This document shows positions 5,000 to 25,096 of a DNA stretch of 25,261 nucleotides, in pieces. Location: the IMG/VR virus record IMGVR_UViG_3300046001_003129, positions 1-25,261 of that record. One strand, given 5' to 3'. Below the pieces are notes generated by a model, which worked only from the letters and a program-made list of their open reading frames with translations, made no database searches and was not told where the DNA came from. Source of the DNA: a virus. Every line of letters begins with the position of its first letter. Within the stretch, counting starts at the first letter, position 1. The translations under genes were made by a program, and so were the position numbers.

Positions 5000-5072
5000 G
5001 TCGCATCCTTGCGTTAATTGAAAGCGAGCGACGGCAACCAATGTGACCGCCGCCCGCCGTCCGGGGCTTATC

Positions 5073-5534
5073 TCAAAACGGAATATCCATGTCGTCGACT
5101 GGCACTGGATCTGCATGCTTCGTCACGGCCGCAGGATGCGCAGGCAGATACGCCTTCACAATGTTGCTCACCTTGCCGACCTTTGATGTGTACTGATCAA
5201 TCGATGCCTTGATGTCGACATCGACCAGGCTTTGCTCGTTAAGCGAGCCGCCCTTCTTAACTGCGGGCAAGTTGCAAGCGATCACGACAGTGTTTATTTC
5301 CCAAGGTTTGTCCACGCCGATCGTCGCAAAGATGCGTTTGTTGTTGCCTTGAAACTCTGTGTCGAGCCACAACTTGAGCGACATCCCATCTTTGTTGTGC
5401 TCGTTCACCTTGTACTTGTCGGCTGCAAACTCTGCCTTGGTGATCGTGAATGTGTACACGCCCTTAGGCAAAATGATCTCCTCAAATTTGCGGTCGGTCT
5501 TTAAATCTTGCGGTGCATCCCATATCAGTTTCAT
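5073..5534 (-). CDS. Single-stranded DNA-binding-like protein
   Basis: A 153-aa protein with a beta-rich body (residues 1-120) and a disordered Pro/Ala/Val-rich linker. It ends in the acidic tip DDMDIPF (147-153), which is nearly the DDDIPF tail of bacterial SSB that recruits replication and recombination proteins. The body resembles phage DUF669-type ssDNA-binding proteins more than E. coli SSB. Its start overlaps the upstream stop as ATGA. Position after an exonuclease and a probable annealing protein, and before the primase-helicase, supports an ssDNA-binding role in replication and recombination. The assignment rests on the tail and context. Confidence 0.75.
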   Translation of the reverse strand: MKLIWDAPQDLKTDRKFEEIILPKGVYTFTITKAEFAADKYKVNEHNKDGMSLKLWLDTEFQGNNKRIFATIGVDKPWEINTVVIACNLPAVKKGGSLNEQSLVDVDIKASIDQYTSKVGKVSNIVKAYLPAHPAAVTKHADPVPVDDMDIPF

Positions 5535-7119: not shown

Positions 7120-7511
7120 GCGACACCTCGCATCTGTCGCCACGCAAGTACAGCTCGCTGCATCAACGACGACTTCTGCACTTCGCTTACAAGGTCACGC
7201 TCAAGGATCTCGCGAACCATGTCTCCCTGCCCGAGCGAGACCAGCGGGATCTCCTTCGGTCGGTCGCCCTGCAAGATCTTTTCGCAGGCTGTCATCACTG
7301 ACTGAGGATCTGCCTCGGAGACTGGATCAAGTAGACGGATCACATCGCCGAGTCGGCTTGCGATGACGAGTTGAATCGCCATTGCGCCCATGCGAAGTTG
7401 CCTCGCCTGTTCGGGCTTTGTCGCTTCGATCCTCGCGGCCAATCCTCGAAGCCGATCCATTGCCAAAATTACGTCCTCGGCTCGGTCTCCCCATGTTGCG
7501 TCCTTGCTCAT
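7116..7511 (-). CDS. 131-aa helical protein of unknown function
   Basis: A mostly helical protein starting MSKDATWGDRAEDVILAMDR, with no recognised motif and no obvious helix-turn-helix. The ATG at 7511 has a clear Shine-Dalgarno (AAGGATGCAGA). The reading frame looks genuinely coding. It overlaps by 185 nt the formally open end of the integrase frame, whose last ~60 residues look like an out-of-frame shadow. Directly coupled (ATGA) to the exonuclease, it is probably an early recombination or replication accessory gene. Confidence 0.65.
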   Translation of the reverse strand: MSKDATWGDRAEDVILAMDRLRGLAARIEATKPEQARQLRMGAMAIQLVIASRLGDVIRLLDPVSEADPQSVMTACEKILQGDRPKEIPLVSLGQGDMVREILERDLVSEVQKSSLMQRAVLAWRQMRGVA

Positions 7512-8625: not shown

Positions 8626-8722
8626 AAGGGTTGTATTGTAGGCGTTTAAAGTACAAAGACGAAATAAGCTGCGGAAAGTCTTAAACATATTTTCAGACAG
8701 TCGGTCTTAATTTGTTGCAACT
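8626..8722 (-). promoter_or_regulatory. Intergenic leader upstream of int
   Basis: This 97-nt AT-rich gap separates the late genes from int. On the minus strand TACAAT lies about 15 nt before the ATG at 8625 and could be a -10 box, with only a weak -35 (TTTCGT) 18 nt upstream. The 7-mer GTCTTAA occurs at 8678-8684 and 8704-8710. AGAC/GTCT half-sites flank the second copy. No intrinsic terminator is evident. Confidence 0.3.
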
Positions 8723-9214
8723 TTAGCCGCCCGATAATTTATGGATGATCGATTTTGCCACGCCCGCCACCGCACTGACTGCGCTGGCGACCGTTGCGCC
8801 AGTGCCTTCGACTTTGCCCCACTTGCCTAATGGGCACTCGACACCTGCCAAGGTGCACTTAATTGTGAGTTGAGCACGCGGGCTTGCATTACATCCGCAC
8901 TTCGTACACCAACCGACCGTGTCAGTCTGCCCTTTGTAATCAGTTGCTCGATGTTCGCACGCCATGCATATGGCGAGTCGCGCCGCCGCGTCGGCTTCGC
9001 TCGCCGGGCCTTGCATGGCGTGCGTGAGTTCGGCGCGAGCGTATTGCTTGGCAAGTTCGATTGTGGATTTGTCTTTGTCAATCAATACGCCATCGACAAC
9101 CCTATGCGAGCATTGATTGCACACGCCGAACGATGGCTTGCCGCCGTAGTGATCTGCGGAGCAGCAGCCGCCGCCGTTGATCCCGCACTGGCTCCAGTGG
9201 TCGCAGGAGATCAT
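8723..9214 (-). CDS. Cysteine-rich zinc-ribbon-like protein
   Basis: A 163-aa protein with paired cysteines in three groups: C4, C10, C17-C18 with C32xxC35; C83xxC86 with H88; and C103xxC106xC108, followed by C120 and C127-PLGKW. The pattern C..C...C..CGC...CPLGKW resembles zinc-ribbon tails of uncharacterised phage proteins. A small Ala/Val-rich segment (about 136-155) near the C-terminus could touch a membrane. The ATG at 9214 overlaps the stop of the preceding cysteine-rich gene as ATGA, so I preferred it to the TTG at 9241. The two are probably made together at the end of the late transcript. Function unknown; a tail-tip partner is my guess. Confidence 0.6.
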   Translation of the reverse strand: MISCDHWSQCGINGGGCCSADHYGGKPSFGVCNQCSHRVVDGVLIDKDKSTIELAKQYARAELTHAMQGPASEADAAARLAICMACEHRATDYKGQTDTVGWCTKCGCNASPRAQLTIKCTLAGVECPLGKWGKVEGTGATVASAVSAVAGVAKSIIHKLSGG

Positions 9215-9948
9215 GTGACTACAACAGAATCTGTAGTACAAGGATCTGTATTTGGTATTGCAGGAGGATCACAATACTCGCCAAGTGGATTACAAACGCT
9301 GTTATATCTGTATAAATCACTTGGTACGCAAGAACTAGCACCGCAGTCAACATTGAATTGACCGTTTGGAAATCCGTCATGTGAAGTATTAGCCCATTCA
9401 GTAATTGCTGCAAGACTGTTATCTACACTGCAACTGAAATCAAACGGATAGCCAGTTGGAGCAGGTGAATATGGACAAATATCAACTCTTGATCCGCAAC
9501 TTACATCATGTGAATATCTCTTGACTTTGAGAACATAACTTTGTAACCGCCAAACATTTTCGCACGGAGTGTTTCCACAAACAAAAAAAAGTCTTGAAAC
9601 CAAATAATATTTGATTTCGTTTACAGTTTTACAGCATGCACATAAAGAATTGTCACAACTACTTCCATTATTTCCTTCATATTCATAGCCAGTGTGTATA
9701 AGTTGTGAACCCCAATAAACTGCCTCGGTCGAAGTGCAAGTACATTTATTAAGCACTACAGTTGGATTAGTAATAATTTGAGATATATAATACCCGAAGT
9801 TGCAACACCAAAGAACGCTTGCCTGATATAGAGTAAATGTCGGAAATGTTACAGATACGCTTGATGGAATGGTTGGCGAGCAGGTAGAACAATTACAACT
9901 CCAACTCTCACATTCATCACCACAACAACACTTCCCCATAAGACTCAT
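9211..9948 (-). CDS. Very cysteine-rich protein, possibly tail-tip or receptor-binding
   Basis: A 245-aa protein with about 25 cysteines (some 10%), starting MSLMGKCCCGDECESW and continuing with CxC and CC pairs throughout. It is also rich in Tyr, Asn, Ser and Thr and has no clear signal peptide. Such composition suggests many disulfides or metal sites, as in an extracellular structural or adhesive protein. The gene is visibly richer in A and T than its neighbours, a mark of recent acquisition or host-range modules. It overlaps the upstream stop as ATGA. Position after the tail and membrane genes suits a late structural protein. I recognise no family. Confidence 0.6.
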   Translation of the reverse strand: MSLMGKCCCGDECESWSCNCSTCSPTIPSSVSVTFPTFTLYQASVLWCCNFGYYISQIITNPTVVLNKCTCTSTEAVYWGSQLIHTGYEYEGNNGSSCDNSLCACCKTVNEIKYYLVSRLFFVCGNTPCENVWRLQSYVLKVKRYSHDVSCGSRVDICPYSPAPTGYPFDFSCSVDNSLAAITEWANTSHDGFPNGQFNVDCGASSCVPSDLYRYNSVCNPLGEYCDPPAIPNTDPCTTDSVVVT

Positions 9949-10451
9949 TTCGCCGACTCCTTGAATGCGGCGTTGAACAGCGGCGACGCAGCCCGCTTTG
10001 CGGCGATGAGTTCGCGCACTGTCGTCGGGTCTTCGCTCGACATCGCTTGCCGCGCTAGGTCTGCCTCGCTCTGCACGCGCCGCGGGATCCAACCCAAAGC
10101 AAGTCGGATCGCAGTCCCGATGCCTGTCTGCCACAGCAGCACCACCAGCGCGACCGCCACGACGGCTCCTAGACCCCATTGAATTAGCGTCGCCCAAAAT
10201 GGAACGATGTCTTTTACGCCCGAGACGGCTACGGAAATTTGGTTTGTTTCATGCAATACGACAGCCGCGTCTGCTTTAATAGTCACGGCTGCGGCGACGA
10301 TCTCAGCTTGAGCGGAGTGCGTAATGATGAACGCACTCCGCTCAGAGATTGAGTGTGCGGCGCTTGATGCGACGCTTGCGCTGCTGGCGATCTCCTTGGT
10401 CGCCGAGCAGCCCGCTGTGAGCACGGCGAGAATTATCGCTTGTCGAACCAC
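9945..10451 (-). CDS. Lipoprotein with C-terminal membrane span, u-spanin-like
   Basis: A 168-aa protein. An N-terminal lipoprotein signal (AIILAVLTAGC, lipobox cysteine at 15) is followed by an Ala/Ser/Val-rich periplasmic stretch and a strong transmembrane segment (FWATLIQWGLGAVVAVALVV, about 83-107). A charged C-terminal region of about 55 residues would lie in the cytoplasm. One protein with both an outer-membrane lipid anchor and an inner-membrane span is the layout of unimolecular spanins, which fuse the two membranes in the last step of lysis. The long cytoplasmic tail is unusual for that family. The start is GTG with GAGG upstream, and the gene overlaps the small membrane gene before it, as lysis genes often do. 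Confidence 0.45.
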   Translation of the reverse strand: MVRQAIILAVLTAGCSATKEIASSASVASSAAHSISERSAFIITHSAQAEIVAAAVTIKADAAVVLHETNQISVAVSGVKDIVPFWATLIQWGLGAVVAVALVVLLWQTGIGTAIRLALGWIPRRVQSEADLARQAMSSEDPTTVRELIAAKRAASPLFNAAFKESAK

Positions 10452-10569
10452 TTCGCTTTAACCTCGTTAAATCCGAACACCGAACCGCAGAGCCAACCAA
10501 CCAGTAATAGCAGACAGCCAAAAAAAGTAGTGCCGAGAGCGTGAGAAAGAAATTCCATAAGTCCTCCAT
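10342..10569 (-). CDS. Small membrane protein, holin candidate
   Basis: A 75-aa protein with one hydrophobic span (WNFFLTLSALLFLAVCYYWL, about 5-25) and an Arg/Lys-rich C-terminus. A short membrane protein with a basic tail beside a spanin-like gene suggests a holin, the protein that permeabilises the inner membrane at lysis. The start overlaps the upstream stop as TAATG. The last ~36 codons overlap the next gene in another frame and read like its shadow, so only the N-terminal part may be under selection. Moderate confidence that it is expressed, low on function. Confidence 0.4.
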   Translation of the reverse strand: MEDLWNFFLTLSALLFLAVCYYWLVGSAVRCSDLTRLKRSGSTSDNSRRAHSGLLGDQGDRQQRKRRIKRRTLNL

Positions 10570-10841
10570 TATTTCGAGTTCATCCGATCAATTTTCAACG
10601 CCAACGCGGCGATGGCTTCTGTGTGTTTCTCGTCGATTGATTGGCCGCGAACGACAGCCTTTTGAAGTTCGAGCGCAACGATTCGCAACTCCTGCGTGTC
10701 CGATGCGATTCGTGTCAGCACTGCATCGCGGCGACCAAGGTCGACGGCATACAGCGCAAGCGCGATCAGGATGCCGATCAGCTGCCCGACAAGCACAGTC
10801 GTCTGAAGCGGTGTCAAAGATGGCTTCTTCGAAGGAGCCAT
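10569..10841 (-). CDS. Single-span membrane protein with coiled coil
   Basis: A 90-aa protein. A short basic N-terminus (MAPSKKPSLTPLQ) is followed by a membrane span (VLVGQLIGILIALALYAVDL, about 16-35) and a charged helical region, probably coiled coil, to the end. TAATG coupling joins it to the preceding tail gene. Topology and place fit a holin, an antiholin or an inner-membrane spanin subunit. No motif separates these options. Confidence 0.5.
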   Translation of the reverse strand: MAPSKKPSLTPLQTTVLVGQLIGILIALALYAVDLGRRDAVLTRIASDTQELRIVALELQKAVVRGQSIDEKHTEAIAALALKIDRMNSK

Positions 10842-11317
10842 TATGGGCAGGTTCCGTCGATGGCGTTTGCAACAGAGAATGTGAACTTGAGAAGAGAATC
10901 ACCGCCGCGAGACATCAGCATGTGGACGCATGTTCCAGTGGCGATCGGTTGCAATGTGAAGCCACTAGGGATGCTTGAGTGTGTGAGTCCCGGGCCGTCC
11001 TTGGTTCCGCTTTGCTGCAATGCTTCGACCGTGTTGTATGCGTAGATGCCTGTATTTGTGTAAGTCAACGACGCACCCGAGCGTTGCTCGAATAGGTTTG
11101 AAGAATCCAAATGAGCAAGACCCCAAGTGTATTTCCACCGTCTGCCTGTGGTCACAACAACATTGCCAGTGATGTATGCAACAAATGTCTGCTGAATGTT
11201 TGGAGGACTAGAGCGAGCGTCAAATTCATTGCGCTCGTTTACCTTGTCGGCCATCTTCTTGAATGCGCGTACATTCAAAGCACCGAAATTGTTTCGGATG
11301 TTGCCGTTGATATTCAT
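10841..11317 (-). CDS. Unrecognised late protein, probable tail component
   Basis: A 158-aa protein rich in Thr, Gly, Ser and Asn with predicted beta strands (FVAYITGNVVVTTGRRWKYTW), starting MNINGNIRNNFGALNVR. No family is recognised. TAATG overlaps at both ends tie it to the tail gene before and the membrane gene after. It is encoded downstream of the tape measure, where distal tail, baseplate or fibre genes normally lie, so a tail-tip or fibre role is likely by position only. Confidence 0.5.
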   Translation of the reverse strand: MNINGNIRNNFGALNVRAFKKMADKVNERNEFDARSSPPNIQQTFVAYITGNVVVTTGRRWKYTWGLAHLDSSNLFEQRSGASLTYTNTGIYAYNTVEALQQSGTKDGPGLTHSSIPSGFTLQPIATGTCVHMLMSRGGDSLLKFTFSVANAIDGTCP

Positions 11318-12219
11318 TATGTGTTCACAATTCCAAGTGCTGAGAAAGCGACTTCATCGGGAAATGGCTGCTTCCAATAGACAACATTCGCCTGCTCAGG
11401 ATTCGCCGCGCTAATCGCTGATCCCGGTGTGACGCGGGTAGTCGACGCTCTTTGGTCTATGTCACGCAGCGGCTGCTGGCGTAGGTGGTAGGTCGTAGGA
11501 TCGTATGAGAATTGATAGTTGATCTCGTATTGATTCGGGCCAATTCTCGAAGTGTTTGCACCTACGAAAAGAAGTGAACTTGCAGCACATACAAATGTTT
11601 GACCAGTTGAACCCAAAGTAAAGGAAGCAACATTTCTTTTTCCAGCCACCGCCAAAATTGTTGCGTAATCAGGTCGACCGTAGATCACATTTCGCACGCT
11701 AATATTCTGAATTGGAAGCAACATTGATACTGGTTCGCCCGCGCTATCTACCTTTGTTCCTGCAATGTCGATCAATGCTGGCAGCGATATGTTTGAACTG
11801 GTTGGAACCGTCGCACCTGTGCGCCAAATATCAACCGTCTGAACGGAGGTCTGCACCTCGATGCTTGTGAAACCCACTTCCGTGGCCGTCTTCACATCTG
11901 CCGCCACTGGGCCTGCTGCTGCGTCTCCGACTGTCGAATCAAAATTGAAGTCGACAACCCACAACTTGCCTAGACCTTCTTGAACAGGACTGATGGTGTA
12001 GGAGATGAATCGAAAGAATGGAGCCGCGACCGATTCAGTGCCGCCGCCAAAATCCAAGTACGGCGTGATCGGGTTTGTGACAGTTGTGTCGACGATGTTG
12101 GCAATCGTCAGACTTTGCTCATCAGCATCACGAACAAGGTAACTGTGAACGGCTGTCCACTTGCCTTTGTCGAATGTCGCCGAGCGCGTGCGTTGAAGCC
12201 ATACGAGACTGAATGCCAT
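11317..12219 (-). CDS. Unrecognised tail protein after the tape measure
   Basis: A 300-aa, mostly beta-type protein with little charge clustering, ending PFPDEVAFSALGIVNT. It directly follows the tape measure (TAATG overlap), the slot that in siphoviruses holds the distal tail protein. I see no distal-tail or hub signature. With the following 158-aa gene it may make a reduced tail tip. Assignment rests on position and composition. Confidence 0.5.
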   Translation of the reverse strand: MAFSLVWLQRTRSATFDKGKWTAVHSYLVRDADEQSLTIANIVDTTVTNPITPYLDFGGGTESVAAPFFRFISYTISPVQEGLGKLWVVDFNFDSTVGDAAAGPVAADVKTATEVGFTSIEVQTSVQTVDIWRTGATVPTSSNISLPALIDIAGTKVDSAGEPVSMLLPIQNISVRNVIYGRPDYATILAVAGKRNVASFTLGSTGQTFVCAASSLLFVGANTSRIGPNQYEINYQFSYDPTTYHLRQQPLRDIDQRASTTRVTPGSAISAANPEQANVVYWKQPFPDEVAFSALGIVNT

Positions 12220-13247
12220 TATGCCGTTCCTCCTGAGTTGTCAACGATTTGTTTGAGTGCTGCAAGTTGTAATGTGGCAATATCATTTGCCTTCTTTGCG
12301 CTGTTGAGCAGTTCGGTCTGCTTGGAGAAGTCTGCGGAACCCGCTACCTTGACGCTGCCGATGGCGGTTGCGAGTGAGTCGACTCCCGGCATGGCGTTGC
12401 CTCGATTCGCCTGCTCTAAATTTTTGGCGGCCGCATCCGCTATCTCCTGCCCCTTCTTCAAGTCCTCAGTGTTCCATTCTTGGATTTGCTTTTGAAGTTC
12501 AGATTCCTTGCTGATGTCTTTCTCAAGTTGCAGTTGCTCCGTTTTTGCGTCAACGATTTTTTGATATTCATCGGAGTGCAGATTTGTTCTTTTCAAATCA
12601 ATTAGAAAAATCTCCATCTCTGTTTTGCCGAGTTTCTCTGTGTCAGTGATGATGTCCGCAAGGATGTCGGCAGCATTCTGTCGTTCCTTGTTTTCGTTGG
12701 CTAGAACTTCTTGATATTTTTTTTGACTATCTAGTCTTTGTTGCTCTGCAATTTTTTGTGTTGCTTGAGCAGCCGCTTCTTCTGCTTGAACAGCCGCATG
12801 ATTTGCTTTTTCTTTTGCGGCTGCTTCAATTCTGCTTTGTTGCTGCTGTTGCTCTTGTCCCATCGCTCCGCCCATGTACCCAATTGAGTCAAGAATCGAT
12901 GCAATCAACTTGCCTCCTGCTCCGGCGATCGGCAAGTCCTCGAGTGTCGTAGCAATTGTTTGCCCAATTGCAGTAGCAGTTTCTCCAAAGCCTTTTATGC
13001 TTCCATCCTTAAAACCTTTTACAAGTTCATTGGCTGCTTTTAGTCCTGCATCAATTAACCCGATAGCGCCCAATCCACCTAGCAATCCACCTACTGCACC
13101 CTTCATCTGCTTTGCATTGATCTTGGCAATATGACCCGCAATCCCAGCACCGCTTTTCTTTGCGGCATTTTCGGCTGCTTTCATGCCTTGCACGAACGGA
13201 TCAGGATTCGCGTAGAGATCGACTGTCATCTTTCCTGTGACTGGCAT
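12219..13247 (-). CDS. Short tail tape measure protein
   Basis: A 342-aa protein. The start, VDLYANPDPFVQGMKAAENAAKK, is the usual opening of tape measure proteins. A glycine/alanine-rich hydrophobic region (about 50-130) follows, then long Ala/Gln/Glu/Lys coiled coils (about 130-290). Tape measures set tail length. At roughly 0.15 nm per helical residue this would give a tail of only about 50 nm, short for a siphovirus. It comes right after the frameshifted chaperone pair, as in lambda-like phages, and overlaps it as TAATG. A CDS split or other long tape-measure gene was not found. Confidence 0.7.
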   Translation of the reverse strand: MPVTGKMTVDLYANPDPFVQGMKAAENAAKKSGAGIAGHIAKINAKQMKGAVGGLLGGLGAIGLIDAGLKAANELVKGFKDGSIKGFGETATAIGQTIATTLEDLPIAGAGGKLIASILDSIGYMGGAMGQEQQQQQSRIEAAAKEKANHAAVQAEEAAAQATQKIAEQQRLDSQKKYQEVLANENKERQNAADILADIITDTEKLGKTEMEIFLIDLKRTNLHSDEYQKIVDAKTEQLQLEKDISKESELQKQIQEWNTEDLKKGQEIADAAAKNLEQANRGNAMPGVDSLATAIGSVKVAGSADFSKQTELLNSAKKANDIATLQLAALKQIVDNSGGTA

Positions 13248-15412: not shown

Positions 15413-15759
15413 TACTGCACCTCTCGACATTGCATGGTGAGTGTGTGACCCGCCGACTTGTAGTCGACGATGCTGACAATCTCGAATGTGGTGGAGATCG
15501 TCGTGCCGTTAGTGCCGCGACTCAGGCTCGCTGTGAAGCGGTCAAATGGCTTTATGCCCGGGTAGAAGTTGGTTGTGATCTGATGCGTCACGACCTGACT
15601 GAGAGCCATGTGGTTGGTCTTCTCCACCGCGCTCGAGTCTTTGATCTCGCCGAAGATGGTGTCGCCAGCGGTGTAGGTGTAGGTTGGTGTTCCAAATGAA
15701 GTCAGGGTCTGCGTGCGTGCGCCGATGATCATCGGAGTTCGCATCATCCCGCTGTTCAT
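15412..15759 (-). CDS. Head-tail adaptor/closure protein
   Basis: A 115-aa beta-barrel-type protein. The segments FGEIKDSSAVEK, VVTHQITTNFYPGIKPFDRF and FEIVSIVDYKSAGHTLTMQC match the Phage_H_T_join (SPP1 gp16) family, which closes the portal channel and docks the tail. The ATG at 15759 overlaps the upstream connector stop as ATGA. Confidence 0.8.
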   Translation of the reverse strand: MNSGMMRTPMIIGARTQTLTSFGTPTYTYTAGDTIFGEIKDSSAVEKTNHMALSQVVTHQITTNFYPGIKPFDRFTASLSRGTNGTTISTTFEIVSIVDYKSAGHTLTMQCREVQ

Positions 15760-16412
15760 TGATATTCTCCGCTCTTGTATTGAGCGATCAAAGCCTTGAT
15801 CGTGCCGGGCACTTCGTACTGTTGACCCGGAGCGAGTGTGGATCGATAGTCGTAGAGCGTCGAGCACTGCATCAAGATGGCGTGCTTGAGTGCGATCGGG
15901 ATCGCAGTTGCACTGGAGCCGTGACCCGCAACATAGACAACTGTGACGACTCCTGCGCCGCCGCCGACGAGTGACGGCCATGACTTGCCGTCAAGCAGCT
16001 GGATGCGTCCAATGCCGTTGTATGACTTCACGGTGTAGTCGGTTGACGCTGACAGCGTCTGTGTGTTGCCGTCGGTGTCGACATATTGCACGCTCGTCAC
16101 GCTGACCAGCGGCGAGCGCGGCAAGGCGATCTCGTAGGACGAGCCGTTGTACATCTCGCCGCTTGAGCCTTGGACTGGCGTGTTCTGTGGGAATGCGTCG
16201 TAGACCGATGTGAATGTCGTATTCGGGATTGCGATGCCGCAATAGTTCTCGATCATCATGCGGGCTGTTGTAATGATCGATGTCGACCCGCCAGTGCTGG
16301 CTTGGATATATGTGGTATCTAGAGAATGAAACACACGCAAATGCGCAAGACATTGCGCAGTTGAGATCGGCTCGAAACTTGGTTCGGTTGTGATCTTGGT
16401 GTTGACTCTCAT
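15756..16412 (-). CDS. Head-tail connector, gp6-like
   Basis: A 218-aa protein. EPISTAQCLAHLRV at 16-29, a helical segment (ARMMIENYCGIAI), the SPLVSVTSVQYVDTDGNT strand and PIALKHAILMQCSTLYDYR helix are the pattern of HK97 gp6/Phage_connect-type adaptors, which form a ring under the portal. The ATGA overlap with the 98-aa gene is retained. Confidence 0.8.
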   Translation of the reverse strand: MRVNTKITTEPSFEPISTAQCLAHLRVFHSLDTTYIQASTGGSTSIITTARMMIENYCGIAIPNTTFTSVYDAFPQNTPVQGSSGEMYNGSSYEIALPRSPLVSVTSVQYVDTDGNTQTLSASTDYTVKSYNGIGRIQLLDGKSWPSLVGGGAGVVTVVYVAGHGSSATAIPIALKHAILMQCSTLYDYRSTLAPGQQYEVPGTIKALIAQYKSGEYQ

Positions 16413-16705
16413 GCGAATACCCTCATCGGAGTTGTCGGTGCGGGGTCGAGGATTGGGAGTTCATCTAGTTGGTCTTGCGCTAGTAGGTCACCGCAGACGC
16501 GTAGGTTGGCGTGGTAGCGGTCGTCAAGCACTACGCTTTCCTTATCAACTATTCCGTAAATCTTGCCGATGAAATCAATGTCCACGCGGCCACCGTCCCA
16601 TTGCCCGATGATGTCGCCGCTGGCGTTGCGGGTTGCGACACCCGCTGCAAGCAAGCAGGATTCCATATTTGACTTGGTCGATGTGCGTAGGAAATAGTCA
16701 ATCAT
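16409..16705 (-). CDS. 98-aa protein between spike and connector genes
   Basis: Starts MIDYFLRTSTKSNMESCLLA and ends in ILDPAPTTPMRVFA. Small phage proteins with a ..YHANLR.. segment and a PxTPxRVxA ending occur next to head-spike or fibre genes; I know no tested function. It overlaps both neighbours as ATGA. A structural accessory of the spike is plausible by position. Confidence 0.55.
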   Translation of the reverse strand: MIDYFLRTSTKSNMESCLLAAGVATRNASGDIIGQWDGGRVDIDFIGKIYGIVDKESVVLDDRYHANLRVCGDLLAQDQLDELPILDPAPTTPMRVFA

Positions 16706-17949
16706 GTGGTCATCGCAATCAGTTGCGCGCTGGTAAGCGCGGTTGGGTAGTACTTGATTTGGCGAATACTGCCGTTGAGAACTGTGGTTAAATCCGTCAG
16801 CGTTGAGCCATCGGTGCTAGTTCCACCAAGCACAAGCCAGGTCGGCGCGACGCTGAACAACAACGCTGAAGATGTCGCAACAGTTCCACCGTTTAAAGAC
16901 AAATTGACTGTTGATGTCGTTCCAGTGCCGGGATAAGCAAAAGAGAAAGCGCCTTTAGTTCTTGCGCCGCTTGTCAAACTATTTCCAGTGGTTACATAAT
17001 TGGGACTTGCATTACGATCACCAACTCGCAACGCACCCGCCGCGCTTACCTGTTGCAAATGCAAATGCTTTGTGGCTATGTCATCAGTCGAAATCACGCT
17101 TCGCACAGTCGAAGTAATCCCGCGCACGCCGCCGTGGAAATCCACGAAGAATGTGCCTGTAGTTCCACCTGTGAACCAACTTGAAAAGTTGGTGGTGGTC
17201 ATCAATGCGAGATCGGGGTTGCGTGTTACTTGCGCCGTGGTTGTCGGGATGTAGGAACTTGCGGCTGTGCCTGTTTCAAGTTGTGCGCCCCATACATATA
17301 TTACTTCAGCTGGTGATGCTGCTGCAGTGCGGCTGCATATATAAACATAAATACCCGTGGTTGCGGCGTTAGTTGTAAAAGTAGTTGTAACTCTTGTCCA
17401 ACTGTTTGTAGTATATGTGTGATTTGTTAGTGTTACTAAATCGCCACTAAACCCTGCGTATGAATATATTCTGCATTGATTACTTGGCGTTCCTCTAATG
17501 TAATAACTAAATGTATATTGAGTTGATCCTGATACTGCAACTATTTGCGCCCGAGAACAGTATGTACTTGCAGTGAGTGCAATTTTTGTAGCGGTATTAC
17601 CATTTGCAGGGTCTAAAACTTCAGTTGTATTTTGGGTTAATGTAGTACCTGAGCCAACTAAATGACTAATACTTGAATTTATGGATTGAGAATATAAAGC
17701 AATGTTTATTGCTTGACCCTCAATTAACAACCCCTTCGCCGCAAGCGTCGTCGGGTCGTAATCGAAGCGCGCCACATCCTGCGCGGCCGTAGTGACATAA
17801 CCCGACGAATTGATGTAGGTCGCCGTGTTGGCTGATCGTGTCAGCACCACGCGGGGATCCAAAGAGCCACCTGTGAAATCTAAATTCAGCGTAGAGCCGT
17901 CGCCCTTTCGGCGAAACAATAGCGCGGCGGCTGCGTTGCTTCGGCTCAT
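16702..17949 (-). CDS. Head spike/lectin-like structural protein
   Basis: A 415-aa protein. LDFTGGSLDPRVVLTRSANT (23-42) with ATYINSSG, RFDYDP and GLLIE is the conserved opening of phage head-spike/fibre proteins. A jelly-roll region follows, with VWGAQLETG...SYIPTTTAQVTR (about 220-250) marking a carbohydrate-binding-like domain. The C-terminal part (about 260-410) is LamG/concanavalin-like. It probably decorates the virion and may bind surface glycans. Much of the middle is visibly AT-rich compared with neighbours, suggesting exchange. The start overlaps the 66-aa gene as ATGA. Confidence 0.7.
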   Translation of the reverse strand: MSRSNAAAALLFRRKGDGSTLNLDFTGGSLDPRVVLTRSANTATYINSSGYVTTAAQDVARFDYDPTTLAAKGLLIEGQAINIALYSQSINSSISHLVGSGTTLTQNTTEVLDPANGNTATKIALTASTYCSRAQIVAVSGSTQYTFSYYIRGTPSNQCRIYSYAGFSGDLVTLTNHTYTTNSWTRVTTTFTTNAATTGIYVYICSRTAAASPAEVIYVWGAQLETGTAASSYIPTTTAQVTRNPDLALMTTTNFSSWFTGGTTGTFFVDFHGGVRGITSTVRSVISTDDIATKHLHLQQVSAAGALRVGDRNASPNYVTTGNSLTSGARTKGAFSFAYPGTGTTSTVNLSLNGGTVATSSALLFSVAPTWLVLGGTSTDGSTLTDLTTVLNGSIRQIKYYPTALTSAQLIAMTT

Positions 17950-18146
17950 CGCGGAGTTGCTCCCTTCTTCACAGCCTTGCATGGAACGGCCCGCGAGCAG
18001 CACTGCACATCGTCAGAGTCTGCACGCTCGGCGTAACCAAGTGCGAGCCACTCGATCGCTGTGCGCTCGTCGACGGCGACCACTTCGCCCGGCGCGTGAA
18101 CGCCAGTCGCTGAGGCAACTGCTTGAATCATTTTCACATTCCGCAT
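17946..18146 (-). CDS. 66-aa protein after the capsid genes
   Basis: MRNVKMIQAVASATGVHAPG followed by EVVAVDERTAIEWLALGYAE. The pattern ..G..(x)PGEVVxVDxxTAxxLxxxGxAE belongs to small, widely spread phage proteins near head genes with no firm role. The start has GAGG, but that GAGG is in the 3' arm of a strong hairpin (18151-18178). The Cys-containing, basic tail is not conserved in my memory of the family. Confidence 0.6.
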   Translation of the reverse strand: MRNVKMIQAVASATGVHAPGEVVAVDERTAIEWLALGYAERADSDDVQCCSRAVPCKAVKKGATPR

Positions 18147-18201: not shown

Positions 18202-19452
18202 TTAGGTGGCGCAAGCAAGAACCTTGAATGCTTCGCTTAGCGTCACAGTAAAATCGCAACGCGTGCTTGCGATATATCCAGTCTGTCCGCTCGCCGCATA
18301 CAATTCTTTCAAGACGCGCATGCTGTAAGTTCCGCGCTCTGCGAGAACGGAATAGTTTCCGAAGTCGCCGATCACGCCGATCTTTGCAGTCGTCGCCATC
18401 ACTGGCATCGCGGCAGATGCGTAAACAGGGATGCCCATCAATCGATCTGGCTCGCCGAGCGCGCCAGAGTTTTGCCAGAAGTAATTCACAGTTCCACCTA
18501 CTGCGCCGAGCGCGCGCAACTTGCCGAGAGTCGCATCGTGAACCAAGATGCTGGCATTTGCGCGATATTGACGAGGCAGTGAGTAAACCCAATCGATCAC
18601 TTCAGCAGCTGTGATTGCACTGTTTGACGCAGTCGTCTTGCCAGTGGTGATGCCCGCGCCTGAGGACAGCAGAGGATTCTGCGGGCCTGAGGTGACGGCT
18701 GAAGTTGCACAGAAAGCAGTTTCTTCGGCTTGAGCAAACATACGAGCGAAAGACTCGGTGAGAATCGACTCGATGCTGAATCCTGCGCCACGCGCTGGAG
18801 CATCTTCGACGAGTTCATTCGAGACCTTCAAGAGAGCAGTCAACTTCGCAGGTGTCAAAGTCACCTTCTTGAAAGTTTGACCAGTCTCCGTAAACGAAGC
18901 GGCTTCCGCAGCCCATGTCGCAGAACCCGCTGTATCGTCAACGGCAAACTCACGCGCATAACTGCCAATGGTTACTACCTTGGCAATCTGTCGAATGGCG
19001 GTCATCGTCTTGAGACGAGTGGTGATCGCATTGTGGAACTCGAGTGGTGGCAACACTGTGCCGCCTGAAGCCTCGCTGATTGCGCGGATCTCTAGCGGAT
19101 TCGTATATTCACCAGAGCGAATGTATGAACCCCAAGCGTTTCGATATTCGTCTGTGTCGGTGTTGCGACCAAACTTGCTGGATGCATTCTCAGCACCGGG
19201 CAAATGTCGAACTTGTTTCGCAGCTTCAGGAGCGTCAGCCTTGAAACTTGCGCCAACATTCATCAGTTCATCGCTGCGTTGTCGTTGCGCTGTGAGTGAT
19301 GCGTATTGCATCTTCAATGCGCTGTACTTCGCCTCGAGAGCGTCTGACATGCCTTCGCCGCTGTCATTTGCGTCGTCGCACATCTTCTTCATTTCGGCGT
19401 ACACAGCGCCCATCTTTTCTACAAGTGCCTTGTATCCACTATCGTTTGCCAT
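18202..19452 (-). CDS. HK97-fold major capsid protein with scaffold domain (second copy)
   Basis: A 416-aa protein. The N-terminal ~65 residues are an Ala/Glu/Lys coiled coil, the delta-type scaffold. A linker leads to the capsid domain, which begins with EIRAISEASGGTVLPP (121-136) and continues through LLKVSNEL (207-214) to a C-terminal FNYSVLAERG region. The protease encoded upstream probably removes the scaffold, between about residues 65 and 125. Size and layout are those of a normal HK97-type major capsid protein. AAGGA lies upstream of the ATG. Its shorter paralogue is directly upstream. Confidence 0.9.
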   Translation of the reverse strand: MANDSGYKALVEKMGAVYAEMKKMCDDANDSGEGMSDALEAKYSALKMQYASLTAQRQRSDELMNVGASFKADAPEAAKQVRHLPGAENASSKFGRNTDTDEYRNAWGSYIRSGEYTNPLEIRAISEASGGTVLPPLEFHNAITTRLKTMTAIRQIAKVVTIGSYAREFAVDDTAGSATWAAEAASFTETGQTFKKVTLTPAKLTALLKVSNELVEDAPARGAGFSIESILTESFARMFAQAEETAFCATSAVTSGPQNPLLSSGAGITTGKTTASNSAITAAEVIDWVYSLPRQYRANASILVHDATLGKLRALGAVGGTVNYFWQNSGALGEPDRLMGIPVYASAAMPVMATTAKIGVIGDFGNYSVLAERGTYSMRVLKELYAASGQTGYIASTRCDFTVTLSEAFKVLACAT

Positions 19453-19550
19453 AATAAAAATTCCTTATTGTTGTGCCGAGCGAGAGTCGATTACCCCAAC
19501 GCTGGGGCAACAGACACGCACGCTCGACGGTGAATGTCTGTGAAAAAGTT
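19453..19550 (-). promoter_or_regulatory. Structured spacer between the two capsid genes
   Basis: This 98-nt gap holds CCCCA-ACGC-TGGGG (19494-19507) nested within CGAGCG/CGCTCG arms (19478-19483 and 19521-19526), and the Shine-Dalgarno AAGGA for the second capsid gene. No U-tract follows the stem. It may tune the ratio of the two capsid proteins. Confidence 0.4.
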
Positions 19551-20564
19551 TTAAGAGCGGTTCACATTGAGCACGCCCGAAGAATGTAAAATGCTGCCGT
19601 CCACGCGAACTGTCGCAACGAACAATGCCTGATCGTTGTCGGCAAGGGACTCGTCGAATCGAGCAACTGAAAATCCGTTGAAATTCGTAGCCAATAGATA
19701 TTTGCTCGGATCAAAGAAGTGACAGATCGTGTCGCCAGTCGTAGGAGTTCCAGTGGAGAGTCGGTGATAGATGACTGGCAAACCTTCGTAGGTCGTTCCC
19801 TCTTTCATTGATCCCGACATAGTTGGGAACAAGATTGGGAACGCCGATGGATCCCATGATGCCATAGTGCGGGAATTGATTACGGCAACACAGTTGCGCC
19901 AACTCTCATAAGGCAATGGAGAAAAGGTGCTTGCGCTTGAAAGCCAAGCGGCACTGATCACATCCTTGATGGTGTTGGTTGTCGCAAAGCCAGTCGACGC
20001 AGTGCGGGAATAAAGTTTCGCACTGTTGAATGAGCCTTGGCATTCTGTGCTGCCTGCGCCCATTAAGATTTGACGATTGACTTCATCCATCAAACCCATG
20101 ACTAATTCTTGGCGCAAGTATGTTTCAATATCTGCGGCGGCCTTGGTGTCGCTCAAGAGTTCGTTTGACACTTTGAGCCAAGATGTGATCTTGTTCAGGC
20201 TAAATGTGTACTTAGTCGTGCCACTTGTGCCCTGATATGGCTTGAGAAAAGCAGGATCTGCTTCAGTCGCGCCGAGACTTGCTTCAGCGACTCCAGTGTT
20301 GATTGCTGGCGGAGTCGTCATGATTGGCTGAACAAATGCAGTTGTAGTCTCAACACGACGGACGCGACTGAGAATTGCGTCCTGTGCCATTGCATTGTCA
20401 ATAAATTTTGCCCAACTTGTCGGAGGCAAAACAGTTCCACCACTTGCAATGCTGAGCGCGCGAATTTCGTTTTGATCCAACTTGCGATGACCAAGTCGAA
20501 GATAGTTTTGATAAATTTCGGAATATTGATCGCTGCTGCGATCGATCTTTTGATTGTCGTTCAT
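19551..20564 (-). CDS. HK97-fold major capsid protein lacking scaffold domain (first copy)
   Basis: A 337-aa protein. Only about 32 residues precede the shared EIRALSIASGGTVLPP segment (33-48), so it lacks the long coiled-coil scaffold of its neighbour. WLKVSNEL (129-136), YLRQELVMGLMDEVNRQIL and a C-terminal strand region continue the HK97 fold. It is a divergent paralogue of the next gene: same landmark motifs in the same order, different sequence between. It could form pentons, a minor lattice component or an alternative capsid. AAGGAG precedes the ATG. A 195-nt leader with the 14-bp motif lies upstream. Confidence 0.85.
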   Translation of the reverse strand: MNDNQKIDRSSDQYSEIYQNYLRLGHRKLDQNEIRALSIASGGTVLPPTSWAKFIDNAMAQDAILSRVRRVETTTAFVQPIMTTPPAINTGVAEASLGATEADPAFLKPYQGTSGTTKYTFSLNKITSWLKVSNELLSDTKAAADIETYLRQELVMGLMDEVNRQILMGAGSTECQGSFNSAKLYSRTASTGFATTNTIKDVISAAWLSSASTFSPLPYESWRNCVAVINSRTMASWDPSAFPILFPTMSGSMKEGTTYEGLPVIYHRLSTGTPTTGDTICHFFDPSKYLLATNFNGFSVARFDESLADNDQALFVATVRVDGSILHSSGVLNVNRS

Positions 20565-20574
20565 TCAAACTCCT

Positions 20575-20596
20575 TGCGTGTAAAAGAAAACACGCA
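20575..20596 (-). promoter_or_regulatory. Hairpin next to the first capsid ribosome site
   Basis: TGCGTG (20575-20580) and CACGCA (20591-20596) pair around a 10-base A/G-rich (plus-strand) loop. In minus-strand RNA the stem ends beside the AAGGAG of the first capsid gene and could affect its translation. Confidence 0.35.
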
Positions 20597-20735
20597 GCAA
20601 AATGCGGAAGGTCTAAGTACGCATCGGGCCAGCGTGCTCTCGGGGAGTTCGCGGAAGTCCGCTCTCGTGATCGATCGCCGTCAGGCAGCGTCGGTCGAGG
20701 CTCTATTCAGTTATGCAGCCCATTATCTCAAGCGA

Positions 20736-20749
20736 ATTTTCGCTCGCAA
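20736..20749 (-). promoter_or_regulatory. 14-bp conserved motif in the capsid leader
   Basis: An exact copy of TTGCGAGCGAAAAT, within a 14-bp palindrome-like AGCGAATTTTCGCT (20731-20744). It sits just after the protease stop (20760) and about 170 nt before the first capsid start, so here the 20-nt rule does not apply. It may start a separate capsid transcript. Confidence 0.5.
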
Positions 20750-20759
20750 GGGGTCTAGA

Positions 20760-21314
20760 TCAAAATTGTGGAGGCAAGTAAATTTTTCTTTTTTTCCCTT
20801 TTGGTTGCTCGGCGCGAGCCTCGACGCTGGTCGAACTGTTCGCCGGGAAGGTGACCACGGATACCTCAAGAAGTTTGGCAAGTTGCACAACTCGCGTGCC
20901 TTTGGTTTCGCCCTTGGCAGGTGGCTCGTAGGTTTCCTTTAGGCAGATGAACCCGAACGAGCACTGCGTGACAATGCCTGCGCGCACCAGCGCGTGCGCT
21001 TCCTCGCTTGTGTCGGTGTCGGGCAGATCGCACTCGAAGCACAGACCCGAACGATCTGCATAGACCTTCAGGTTGCCTGCGCTCACGCGACCCATCGGCT
21101 TTGCCGTATCGTGGTTCCAAAGCAAAGCGATCTTGTCGCCGTCGGCTTTGATCGATGCGTCAAAGCATGTCGGCTCGAGACGCTCGTAGCAGTTGCCCAT
21201 GTCGTATCGCTCCCAATTCGCGGCGATGCCGTTGAGTCGCAGCGGCTCACCGGGCTGCGGTTCGGTTTGTTCGATGCGGACTGCGCCAGCCTTGCGGGTT
21301 TCGATGTTGCTCAT
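20760..21314 (-). CDS. Prohead protease, HK97 U35 family
   Basis: A 184-aa serine protease. The catalytic histidine lies in LLWNHDTAKPMG (about 64-75) and the serine in VTQCSFGF. The segments LEVSVVTFPAN and GIVTQCSFGFICL are family hallmarks. It would cleave the capsid scaffold during head maturation. The start at 21314 has AAGGAGC and overlaps the portal stop as ATGA; upstream in-frame sequence is a shadow of the portal gene. Confidence 0.92.
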   Translation of the reverse strand: MSNIETRKAGAVRIEQTEPQPGEPLRLNGIAANWERYDMGNCYERLEPTCFDASIKADGDKIALLWNHDTAKPMGRVSAGNLKVYADRSGLCFECDLPDTDTSEEAHALVRAGIVTQCSFGFICLKETYEPPAKGETKGTRVVQLAKLLEVSVVTFPANSSTSVEARAEQPKGKKRKIYLPPQF

Positions 21315-23023
21315 AGTTGCTCCTTGTTGGTTTGAATGAGTTCTTGAATCAGGCGCGTGGCGAGAGCCACGGCCGTCTCGGTGTGTCCTGTGTTGTGCCA
21401 GTCTGCATTGCGTGCTTCGGTCTTGATCGACTCGGCGAATGCGTTGGCGATGGCAATGCCGTCGCTTGCGCGGTCGTCGTGACCTTGCAGCACGAGTAGC
21501 CCGCGCATGATCGGTGCGATCTCGCTGGCGATGCGTTCGACATTGGGTATCCAAGCCTGCAATTTTGCCGCGCTGCGACAGCCTCGGCGGTACTTCGCTT
21601 CTGCCTCGGTGCATCGCGTCATCGCTGCGAGAGCCGACGGATAGAAAAGATCAACTGCACGGTCAAGTGGATTGACGGTCGACTTTAACTCTGTCGGGTC
21701 GATGTCGACTGATGCTGCAATAACATCCGACTGCGGCGGCTCAATCTGTGTTTCGGTTTCAGTGGGGACATTCGGCGAAACAGGTGCAGCCGCAGTCGGA
21801 GTGCTCGTGTTCAGAGGCAAGCGGATCGACTCGCCGCCTTCGACGGCTGGCAATCCTTCACGCGCTCTGATTTCGTTGGGAGTTAAAATTCCATTTGTGA
21901 CTGCTACGGCGTAGTAGTTAAATCTTGACATGTCACCTCGAAGCAAATCATCAAACGAAATTCGAGTGACTACATCGTCGCCACGCTTAATCAACTTGCG
22001 ATTGATTTCCTGCTCAAGTCGAGCAGCCCAACCCGCCAGCGTGCTCTGCACAAAGACTGCATTGGCTTGCTCGGCTGACGAGTACGACACGCCGTCGTTG
22101 TCGCCGACGCGATGCGACGGCACATTGAATGCGGCGGCGATCTGTTGGCGACAGAACTTCTTCATGCTGTCGAGGTCGCTGTCTTTGGCGTTGGTGGAGA
22201 TTGCGTCGTACTTGAGACCTTCCTCAAGAATCGCAACCTTACCCGCACCTTGTGCGCCCGAATGCACGCGGGCGAATGCCTCGCGCAATCTGTTTGCACC
22301 TTCCGCGCTCAGTCTGCCCGGCATTGAGAGCACGCCAGCGGGGCGACAGTTGTTGGCGAAGAATCGAGATGTGAACTCCTGCAATTCTAATTCCATGCCG
22401 ATCAGATCTCTCATGCGGTGGATCGCCGCTTCGCCGAGCATGCCGTCTGCGCTTGGCCCGACTACATGGAGAATGTCGTAGGGTCTAAACTTGCGTTGCT
22501 TGATTTCCTCGGATGCCTTCTCGTCTGCCTTGCCTGTCCAGTATTGGTAATAGGGTTGATTCGCAGCGTCGCGCATCATGTACATCAAGTCAGGTCGCAG
22601 TCGCTCAAGTCCGATCGGCGTGCCAGCGGGATTGCGATTAATGAATGCAAACGAATTGCCATAAAGCAAGCAATCGGAAATCTGCGCCTCACGAAACACA
22701 AACGATGTCATGTCCTCGTTGGCTTCGCCGTTGAGCAGCTGGTACACAGGATGCGTCACATCATTGCTTGCGCCGTCTGCGCTGTTGCGCAACACTTGCC
22801 ACGGCATGCGAGCCAGAGTCTGCGAGATCAATCGCACGCACGCGTAGACAGTCGGCGACTCCATCGCGTTGTCGGGCGAAATGGTTTTGCCAGTCCACGC
22901 CCACGAACTTACATACGACTGGATGCCGCCGCCGATTGGCTGACCGATTGGCGTTGTGTCCTCAAACATAGATCGAGGCGGTGCTTTGCCGAGTGCGCGT
23001 GTGATGAGATCGATTAGACCCAT
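21311..23023 (-). CDS. Portal protein, HK97 family
   Basis: A 570-aa portal. ESPTVYACVRLISQTLARMP near the N-terminus, then GNSFAFINRNPAGTPIGLERL, GPSADGMLGEAAI and FNVPSHRVGDNDGVSYSSAE are typical of PF04860 portals. The dodecamer forms the DNA gate at one capsid vertex. The C-terminal ~130 residues are extra helical sequence beyond the usual core. The start at 23023 follows AAGGA and overlaps the TerL stop; an in-frame extension to 23194 is out-of-frame TerL sequence. Confidence 0.95.
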   Translation of the reverse strand: MGLIDLITRALGKAPPRSMFEDTTPIGQPIGGGIQSYVSSWAWTGKTISPDNAMESPTVYACVRLISQTLARMPWQVLRNSADGASNDVTHPVYQLLNGEANEDMTSFVFREAQISDCLLYGNSFAFINRNPAGTPIGLERLRPDLMYMMRDAANQPYYQYWTGKADEKASEEIKQRKFRPYDILHVVGPSADGMLGEAAIHRMRDLIGMELELQEFTSRFFANNCRPAGVLSMPGRLSAEGANRLREAFARVHSGAQGAGKVAILEEGLKYDAISTNAKDSDLDSMKKFCRQQIAAAFNVPSHRVGDNDGVSYSSAEQANAVFVQSTLAGWAARLEQEINRKLIKRGDDVVTRISFDDLLRGDMSRFNYYAVAVTNGILTPNEIRAREGLPAVEGGESIRLPLNTSTPTAAAPVSPNVPTETETQIEPPQSDVIAASVDIDPTELKSTVNPLDRAVDLFYPSALAAMTRCTEAEAKYRRGCRSAAKLQAWIPNVERIASEIAPIMRGLLVLQGHDDRASDGIAIANAFAESIKTEARNADWHNTGHTETAVALATRLIQELIQTNKEQL

Positions 23024-24687
23024 TGCATGTTTCCTTCTTCGTAGATTGATGTTTTGTTGTCTGCGTCTTTGTGCACCATGCACGCCAACGCCGTGACGAG
23101 CGCGGCGATGCAATCGATGCGCTCCGTCGAACTGCTTTTTGATGGTTTGATATTGCCTGCGGGATCGGTGTCGATCATCGTGTTGGCCATGCACCAGTCG
23201 GCGACTGGATGCGCGGCGTGCTTTAACTTCTTGCCGAGGACGAGTGCCTCGAGTGCTTTAGAACCTTCTGAGAGACTGCGATAACCTTGTCGCACTTCAA
23301 GCATTGGCAGACCTTCTTGTTGCAACCCGACTGCAAACTGCGTTGCGTTCCAAGGGTCGTAGCCAACAGCCTTGACCGAGCGAGCGATCTTGGAGATGTC
23401 GCGGATCTTCTGCGCCACATATTCGTAATCGACGACATCGCCCGGCGTGGCGATCAATGATCCTTGCGATGCCCAAGTGTCGTAGGGAACTCGATCGACC
23501 CGCGCTCGTCTGCGGATGCCGTTCTCGGGACAGAATGCGTATGAAAGAAATGCGACATTCTCATCTTCGTCGACATTGATCACAGCCACGGAAGTCAAGT
23601 CCGTCGTGGTGGACAAGTCGCATGCAATTATGATGTCCTTGCCCGCAAAGTATTGCTCGTCGATCTCGGGCGCGGCGCACGCGGCCCACGACTCAAGCGA
23701 GATCCATCGCTTCTTTGTTTCTGTCCACTGACAGAGATACAACTGTCGGAATGCGATTTCGTGGCCAGGCAAATCCTGCGCTTTAAGACACTCGCTCTGC
23801 AAAAATGATTCTTCAACACTGACACCCAAGTTGGGGTTAGATGCTTTCCACACCGCAGGCGATTTCCAATCCGCGTCAATGTCCGCTCCAAACAACACTG
23901 GCAAGTGAGCGCGATCGACAACTGTGCCCGCACGGACTTTCTGACTGTACTGATGCTGCTCGTAGCACAATGAATGTTTGTCATGCCCCGCAGTTGTAAT
24001 TGAAATAGTAAGTGGTTCTTGTCGTGCTCCCACGCCAGTCAACATCGCATCATAAAGATCCCTGTTCGGTGCTGTGTGCAGCTCATCGAATATTGTCGTT
24101 GACGGACTCTTGCCGTGCTTCGTGCCAGCGTCCGCGCTCAAGATCTCGATCTTGCCGTTGTTCTTTGCGCATGTGATCGTGTTGCGATAGATCTCGAGCA
24201 CGCTCGACAACGCAGGACACGCTCTGATCATTGCCTTGCAAGCGTCGCCGACGATCGCCGCTTGATCTCGACTCGATGCACAACAGTAAACCTCGGGGCT
24301 GTTCTCGCCGCTGGCGAGCAGCGACCACAACGCAAGGCCCGCGCAGAGTTGACTTTTCCCCTGCTTTCTTGCCACTTCGATGTATGCCGAGCGATATCTG
24401 CGTGTGCCGTCCGCACGCTGCCAGCCAATCAAGTTGCCGACGATTGCCTTCTGCCACGGCTGCAACTCGAAGGGCTGACCAGCCCACTTGCCTTTTGTGT
24501 GTTGCAACGCCTGAGAAAAGAATGCGAAAGCCGCGTCGGCTTTTGATTGCACGAAGTGATCGCCGTCGCCCGCAGTCGCTACTGCGTCGTAGCCGGGCAA
24601 GTCGTATCGCTTAGGATCCGAACTTGAACAAGTTTTTGATCGTGTCTTCTTTGCTATCGCCGCTGGCTTTCTGACCTTGTAAAGCAA
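23014..24687 (-). CDS. terL: Terminase large subunit
   Basis: A 557-aa ATPase-nuclease of the Terminase_1 (HK97 gp2-like) type. Walker A VARKQGKS (105-112), Walker B TTIFDELH (197-204) and coupling SITTAG (229-234) form the motor. The RNase H-like nuclease has D357 (ACDLSTTTD), D444 (GYDPWNA) and D525 (TERIDCIAAL). It pumps DNA into the prohead and cuts it. The start is TTG at 24687, overlapping TerS by 77 nt; a TTG at 24600 is an alternative. Neither has a strong ribosome site. Confidence 0.95.
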   Translation of the reverse strand: MLYKVRKPAAIAKKTRSKTCSSSDPKRYDLPGYDAVATAGDGDHFVQSKADAAFAFFSQALQHTKGKWAGQPFELQPWQKAIVGNLIGWQRADGTRRYRSAYIEVARKQGKSQLCAGLALWSLLASGENSPEVYCCASSRDQAAIVGDACKAMIRACPALSSVLEIYRNTITCAKNNGKIEILSADAGTKHGKSPSTTIFDELHTAPNRDLYDAMLTGVGARQEPLTISITTAGHDKHSLCYEQHQYSQKVRAGTVVDRAHLPVLFGADIDADWKSPAVWKASNPNLGVSVEESFLQSECLKAQDLPGHEIAFRQLYLCQWTETKKRWISLESWAACAAPEIDEQYFAGKDIIIACDLSTTTDLTSVAVINVDEDENVAFLSYAFCPENGIRRRARVDRVPYDTWASQGSLIATPGDVVDYEYVAQKIRDISKIARSVKAVGYDPWNATQFAVGLQQEGLPMLEVRQGYRSLSEGSKALEALVLGKKLKHAAHPVADWCMANTMIDTDPAGNIKPSKSSSTERIDCIAALVTALACMVHKDADNKTSIYEEGNMQWV

Positions 24688-25096
24688 CCCGACTCGAAGC
24701 AGTCAAACCGAAGTGAGTGATGATCCGCCACGCCGCGTCGCGCGACTCCCGACGCGCTCGTGCCCAAGGATTCATCATCGGTATCCCGCCTTTGCCCTCG
24801 ATCACATCGCCACCTGACTTGACAGCCATGTGTGCGGCGTGCTCCCCGAGAGCGAGTTCATTCGCAAGCATGCTTACGCTGATGCCGTCTTGCTCTTTCA
24901 TAACGCCCAACTTTGTAATCTGTGACACGACGAGATCAAAGATTCTTTTGCTCTCGATGTTCTCAGTAATGCACGGCAACATGAGCGGAGTTCCGTCAGT
25001 GCCGACAACTTCGCCTTTGAGTCGACGCGCCCCGCGTCGCGATCCTCTTAGATTTAGTATTGATGTTGGTGTCGGAGCGGGGCCGCGTGTTCCCAT
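24611..25096 (-). CDS. terS: Terminase small subunit, P27 family
   Basis: A 161-aa protein opening MGTRGPAPTPTSILNLRGSR, the hallmark of P27-like (Terminase_4) small terminases. The helical body includes MLANELALGEHAAHMAVK, and the C-terminus is the usual oligomerisation/TerL contact. It recognises the phage packaging site. There is no Shine-Dalgarno before the ATG; the 14-bp motif lies exactly 20 nt upstream. In HK97-like phages an HNH gene precedes it, here found at the other end of the window. Confidence 0.9.
   Translation of the reverse strand: MGTRGPAPTPTSILNLRGSRRGARRLKGEVVGTDGTPLMLPCITENIESKRIFDLVVSQITKLGVMKEQDGISVSMLANELALGEHAAHMAVKSGGDVIEGKGGIPMMNPWARARRESRDAAWRIITHFGLTASSRVALQGQKASGDSKEDTIKNLFKFGS

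Follow-up and report, generated by a model that had tools for sequence, protein, structure and literature searches.

Tandem HK97-family capsid genes in an uncultured phage lineage: a proposed vertex protein that lacks the delta domain and co-varies with a fibre gene

The head module and its two capsid genes

The window analysed here is the whole of the linear IMG/VR virus record IMGVR_UViG_3300046001_003129 (positions 1-25,261; 25,261 bases). Its minus strand carries a head module composed of the terminase small subunit (TerS), the terminase large subunit (TerL), the portal, the S78 protease, two capsid genes designated A and B, a small gene, a fibre gene and the head-tail adaptor (Table 1), followed by the head closure, tail terminator and tail tube genes. 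The tail tube protein is of the lambda type, which suggests a siphovirus. A tyrosine integrase (7327-8688) is found together with exonuclease VIII-like and primase/helicase genes in the interval 2830-8688 of the window, and this gene content suggests a temperate phage. No prophage of the lineage was detected in a scan of 84,980 species genomes. The interval 9211-13247, located 3' of the tail tube gene, encodes several proteins of 158-342 amino acids that match no PHROG or Pfam family, and no tape-measure protein was recognised there. The scans of the window for Rfam families and for tRNAs were both empty. A calcineurin-like phosphoesterase (PF00149) is encoded close to the end of the record (816-1811).

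Table 1. Position of the head-module features in the window
Feature	Position	Strand	Evidence or remark
Terminase small subunit	24611..25096	-	PF05119
Terminase large subunit	23014..24687	-	PF20441/PF03354
Portal protein (extent of the open reading frame)	21311..23194	-	PF04860, 300 bits
Prohead protease (S78)	20760..21614	-	PF04586, 123 bits; true start probably near 21314
Non-coding leader 5' of A, about 195 nt	20565..20759	-	Alignment with relatives
MCP-A (337 aa), capsid protein of the HK97 fold that lacks a delta domain; putative vertex (penton) protein	19551..20564	-	PF05065, TIGR01554
Axial region of MCP-A, residues ~181-280	19725..20024	-	Homology and secondary structure of a low-confidence model; after the spine helix
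Interval between A and B, for which a strong RNA hairpin is predicted	19453..19550	-	Fold z-score -3.1
MCP-B (416 aa), major capsid protein of the HK97 fold; putative hexamer protein	18202..19452	-	PF05065, TIGR01554
Delta (scaffold) region of MCP-B, residues 1 to ~100, end approximate	19153..19452	-	TIGR01554 alignment
Conserved small protein, ~66 aa from ATG 18146	17946..18146	-	Homologues 3' of B in relatives; start by eye
Head-fibre protein, 415 aa from ATG 17949	16702..17949	-	NF048003; start read from the sequence
N-terminal anchor of the fibre (MSRSNAAAALLFRRK)	17905..17949	-	Common to fibres with different bodies and closely related A
Head-tail adaptor	15756..16412	-	phrog_442

A preliminary description of this DNA had proposed two tandem capsid genes of the HK97 family at 20564-19551 and 19452-18202. 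Both open reading frames are present on the minus strand, and their products pass the curated cut-offs of the HK97 capsid profiles PF05065 (79 bits for A, with a cut-off of 24.2, and 164 bits for B) and TIGR01554 (83 and 226 bits, respectively). In a comparison of the A profile with the B profile, each built from its family, hhalign gives a probability of 99.9 and an E-value of 2.7e-31 over 312 aligned columns. The closest solved structure is for both proteins the major capsid protein (MCP) of the gene transfer agent RcGTA (E 6.6e-11 for A and 2.1e-49 for B). The AlphaFold2 model of A, obtained from a shallow alignment of 12 rows, has a mean pLDDT of 50.5; its best Foldseek matches are HK97-fold capsids, a result given little weight at this confidence. 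By its profile match A is an HK97 capsid protein, and despite its low quality the model retrieves capsid proteins first. The model of B (10 rows, mean pLDDT 39.1) is too poor to use, its best-predicted part being the N-terminal region, where residues 3-31 and 37-65 form two long helices. The common landmarks noticed in the preliminary description are real, and correspond to EIRALSIASGGTVLPP and WLKVSNELL in A and to EIRAISEASGGTVLPP and LLKVSNELV in B. In most other A proteins the first landmark reads E.RALSE.SGG.VLFPT, and its near-identity between A and B seems to be partly peculiar to the genome of the window.

A scaffold domain had been attributed to the second protein only, and the profile alignments agree with this. 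B matches TIGR01554 from model position 6 and therefore contains the N-terminal delta domain, whereas A matches the same model only from position 82 and therefore lacks it. The delta domain is absent from every complete A of the family. Across the family, A begins with a short MxxKNQLDRGGEEY-like peptide, and the start of A is level with the segment TDTDEYRNAW of B, which would follow the removal of the delta domain. The length of A is consequently close to that of the would-be mature B.

The leader between the protease gene and A, of about 200 nt, is found in nearly all close relatives and is well conserved even where the alleles of A differ. It contains a short hairpin (GCGTGT...ACACGC) immediately 5' of the ribosome-binding site of A. 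The predicted hairpin between A and B (-32 kcal/mol, z -3.1) is located just 5' of the ribosome-binding site of B and might set the ratio of A to B.

Pairing of A and B in the relatives, and comparison with known systems

Relatives with A or B were collected in six scans of IMG/VR, the identity of B ranging from 100% to about 35%. An A-like gene lies directly upstream of B in 121 of the 131 distinct B genes. The ten others are at a contig end, where the record starts within B or leaves at most 46 bases before it, so that A is never missing where the DNA 5' of B is available. This answers the survey of relatives proposed in the preliminary description, and neither of the two findings that would have refuted that description came up. 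An independent Pfam search recovered two PF05065 genes, some of them as several split matches, in 31 of 32 long records, and the exception begins inside B. In a tree including single-MCP phages, the A proteins form one clade and the B proteins form another. The pair is therefore ancestral and older than the radiation of the lineage. The exact origin of A is unsure owing to long branches.

Two trivial origins of the pair were rejected. A contig artefact or a decaying duplicate is ruled out by the universal and intact occurrence of the pair in the relatives, and a recent duplication in the genome of the window by the separate clades of A and B, the single-MCP outgroups falling outside both. In one relative (L155, a 26.9-kb record), B is broken over three reading frames (5150-6455) beside an intact A, which reflects either frameshift errors or decay.

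At the sensitivity used, the pair was found neither in annotated phages nor in the 84,980 prokaryote species genomes, where the host scan gave one weak and irrelevant match only. No close A was found in annotated phages, and plasmids gave only distant MCP matches. We found no report of such a pair in HK97-like siphophages in the open-access literature.

The universality of A also bears on a role in size control, in which A would redirect the size of the lattice, as the protein Ccm of the satellite SaPIbov5 does, and shells with and without A would both occur. Ccm is a homologue of the capsid protein (CP) located in pentamers that restricts shells to T=4 (PMC8569155), and the window and its relatives are short records (at most 34 kb in the set of 32 long records), which may however be fragments. 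Against this, A is universal and encoded by a phage that possesses a terminase and a portal of its own, we saw no regulatory switch, and both genes are retained in 121 of 121 testable relatives. Switching between capsid forms, one of the options of the preliminary description, is accordingly disfavoured, and we consider this explanation highly improbable. A penton that sets the size of the shell would be compatible with the explanation preferred below.

Most HK97-type phages use one protein in both hexamers and pentamers, T4 being the well-studied exception. Like A and B, gp23 and gp24 of T4 are two homologous HK97-fold proteins in one phage, with about 20% identity (PMC9958956). The protein gp24 occupies 11 vertices and loses only 10 N-terminal residues, compared to 65 for gp23 (PMC9958956); it is a vertex protein with almost no N-terminal propeptide, in which it resembles A, if A is indeed at the vertices. 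The capsid family is nevertheless a different one: among the Pfam models (E 1e-3), A and B match PF05065 only and no T4 capsid family. The pair also differs from that of T4 by an A devoid of any delta domain, by a small siphovirus-like genome and by the co-variation of A with a fibre gene.

The second comparison concerns Ccm, a homologue of the CP of phage phi12 that forms pentamers, is devoid of the long N-arm and makes no shells alone (PMC8569155). It is thus, as proposed for A, a capsid-protein homologue found in pentamers. Ccm is encoded by a satellite, hijacks a helper and keeps a delta domain of 87 residues, whereas A is phage-encoded and has no delta domain. Contrary to the SaPI satellites, the window encodes its own TerS, TerL, portal, protease, MCP-B and tail tube.

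In RcGTA (capsid and head spikes Rcc01687, Rcc01079 and Rcc01080), the MCP pentamers carry the head spikes, the base proteins of which attach to the axial domains (PMC7296036). Besides possessing the solved MCP closest to both A and B, RcGTA has a fibre that shares the domain NF048003 with the fibre of the window. It differs by a single MCP used at all positions, and in RcGTA a distinct jelly-roll protein forms the base that links the fibre to the capsid. The integrase, exonuclease VIII-like and primase/helicase genes of the window also distinguish it from a gene transfer agent. Finally, the nearest annotated relatives are HK97-like phages from gut Clostridia and from streptococci (PV036xxx and Javan), with 29-39% identity to B and 22-27% to A. 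They share the order portal, S78 protease, MCP with the window, but only one MCP gene follows the protease in the four records that were examined. A second HK97 protein specialised for the vertices is already known from T4 and Ccm. Within the open-access literature, what appears to be new is the form without scaffold, its universal presence in a lineage that is uncultured, as well as the docking or cassette behaviour proposed below.

Separate evolution of A and its association with the fibre gene

Among relatives with B more than 80% identical, several alleles of A coexist, the divergent ones being 26-41% identical to A of the window. The clearest case is given by the genomes L019 and L020, where B is 99% identical and its axial domain 100% identical, and where A is only 32% identical and its axial domain 18%. 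Since axial domains touch when capsomers are shared, the exchange of A beside a nearly unchanged B argues that A is located in separate capsomers, and we infer that A probably forms its own homomeric capsomers. As a caveat on this contrast, B could be homogenised by recombination.

The same comparison bears on a mixed lattice, another option of the preliminary description, in which A would be a second lattice subunit co-assembled with B in the same hexamers and pentamers. The two proteins are homologous, their N-arm and peripheral landmarks are conserved and their genes are adjacent, as such co-assembly would lead one to expect. On the other hand, the axial domain of A is replaced beside the unchanged axial domain of B that it would touch, and the delta domain is present in B only. 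We regard mixed capsomers as quite unlikely. If A forms homomeric capsomers and has no scaffold, next to a B that has one, the simplest reading is that these capsomers are the pentons. The dedicated penton protein, the third option of the preliminary description, is thus the best supported of the three, although indirectly.

A could also be a special protein of low copy number, for example in a ring at the portal vertex or as a decoration-like HK97 protein on the shell. This would suit a protein that is never lost and yet evolves fast. A nevertheless keeps a full-length HK97 capsid domain, including the N-arm and the peripheral domain, and we know of no HK97-fold decoration protein; such a role seems improbable to us.

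The axial region of A (Table 1) behaves differently in genomes with and without the fibre gene. In fibre-positive genomes its conservation is equal to or above that of the rest of A, whereas in fibre-negative genomes it is by far the most variable part of the protein. For pairs with 40-60% identity elsewhere in A, the mean axial identity is about 0.64 when the fibre is present, compared to about 0.3 when it is absent. No such difference between fibre-positive and fibre-negative genomes is seen in the equivalent region of B. In the fibre-negative pair L034 and L037, the nucleotide identity of A is 98-99% in both flanks and 74% inside the axial region, and the silent divergence is 0.62 in this region compared to 0.02-0.07 in the flanks. 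The change in fibre-negative genomes looks like an exchange of divergent cassettes: the insertions and deletions and the raised silent divergence of the axial region suggest such an exchange rather than the action of a diversity-generating retroelement.

The fibre gene itself is variable in occurrence. The interval between B and the adaptor gene has two states, either about 130-210 bases with the small gene only or 1.2-2.1 kb with one main extra gene, which is in the window a fibre of the NF048003 type (GTA_spike_fiber, 98.5 bits with a cut-off of 36). The start codon of this fibre gene and the stop codon of the small gene share bases (ATGA), and the small gene is kept in relatives with and without the fibre gene. 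PHROGs classes the window fibre as tail, and it could be a tail protein.

The fibre state was mapped on 86 A/B pairs, 36 of which have the fibre gene. It changes once on the tree of A and five times on the tree of B. In a first set, the number of changes was six for the portal, six for the protease, five for the small protein and ten for the adaptor. The fibre-positive A proteins form one clade, and a single fibre-positive clade is rejected by the B tree (AU p 3e-5). About two dozen fibre-positive genomes added after the hypothesis had been formulated gave no exception to the association of A with the fibre. An independent-pairs test on the B tree comprises 4-5 independent contrasts, too few for significance.

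The N-terminal segments of the fibres in the family are MSRSNAAAALLFRR or M(K/R)GNxxVPFMLRR, and at least three types of bodies are found behind these anchors: GTA-type, glycine-rich (PF21722) and GDSL/SGNH-like (PF13472, in L254). A third start, MLITWRRES, is paired with SGNH-like bodies. On the A tree, the anchor type (first two classes) changes once and the fibre bodies change seven times. The anchor type therefore follows A and the bodies do not, which is the pattern expected if the anchor binds A.

The association of A with the fibre could be a historical linkage, the genes having spread as a block without contact between their products. This would concern the fibre part only and would be compatible with A as a penton. 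The A and fibre genes lie within about 3 kb of each other, and all fibre-positive A proteins group in a single clade. However, A is separated from the fibre gene by B, which makes simple linkage a poor explanation, and neither B nor the small gene, both located between the two, tracks the fibre. Moreover, the axial conservation is confined to fibre-positive A, and the anchor type follows A independently of the bodies. We consider the historical linkage rather unlikely. Fibres can also sit on hexamers, as Hoc does in T4, and the link with the fibre is therefore no proof by itself of a penton.

Proposed architecture of the head

The explanation that we favour, with a probability of about 0.64, is that B forms the hexamers and A separate capsomers, likely the pentons, with the axial domain of A serving as a fibre socket or as an exchanged cassette. 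B, with its delta scaffold domain, would drive the assembly of the procapsid and form the hexamers, and the S78 protease would trim it. A, devoid of a scaffold domain, would form homomeric capsomers, most likely 11 pentons, joined to the B lattice by the N-arm, the E-loop and the peripheral domain. At the vertex, the axial domain of A would point to the outside. In the lineage of the window, it would be a conserved site to which the fibre docks by its N-terminal anchor, the body of this fibre being exchangeable; in the lineages without fibre, the axial domain itself would be exchanged as a cassette. More generally, and with slightly less than even confidence, an HK97 vertex protein may here have become an obligate and separately evolving outward module, the axial domain of which is either exchanged between phages like a receptor-binding protein or held constant as a socket for interchangeable head fibres, with hardly any change in the hexamer protein.

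If this explanation is true, the two roles of an obligate hexamer/vertex pair would be separable experimentally by varying A alone beside B. The vertices would then be likely sites of adhesion, and the lineage would offer a system, found in nature, in which vertex anchors and fibres can be exchanged.

Some features of the variable proteins can be added. GDSL/SGNH-like motifs (GDSNxG) are present in the fibre genes of L107, L226, L237, L243, L254, L275 and L277; among those scanned, only L254 gave a Pfam match for the SGNH-like body. These fibres perhaps act on surface sugars. In A of L076, L098, L101, L104-L106 and L111, which form one fibre-positive group, we have detected an insertion of about 70 amino acids made of the repeat GGSGYTSAPTVxFTGGGGSGAxATAT. 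This insertion is located before the spine helix, probably in the E-loop.
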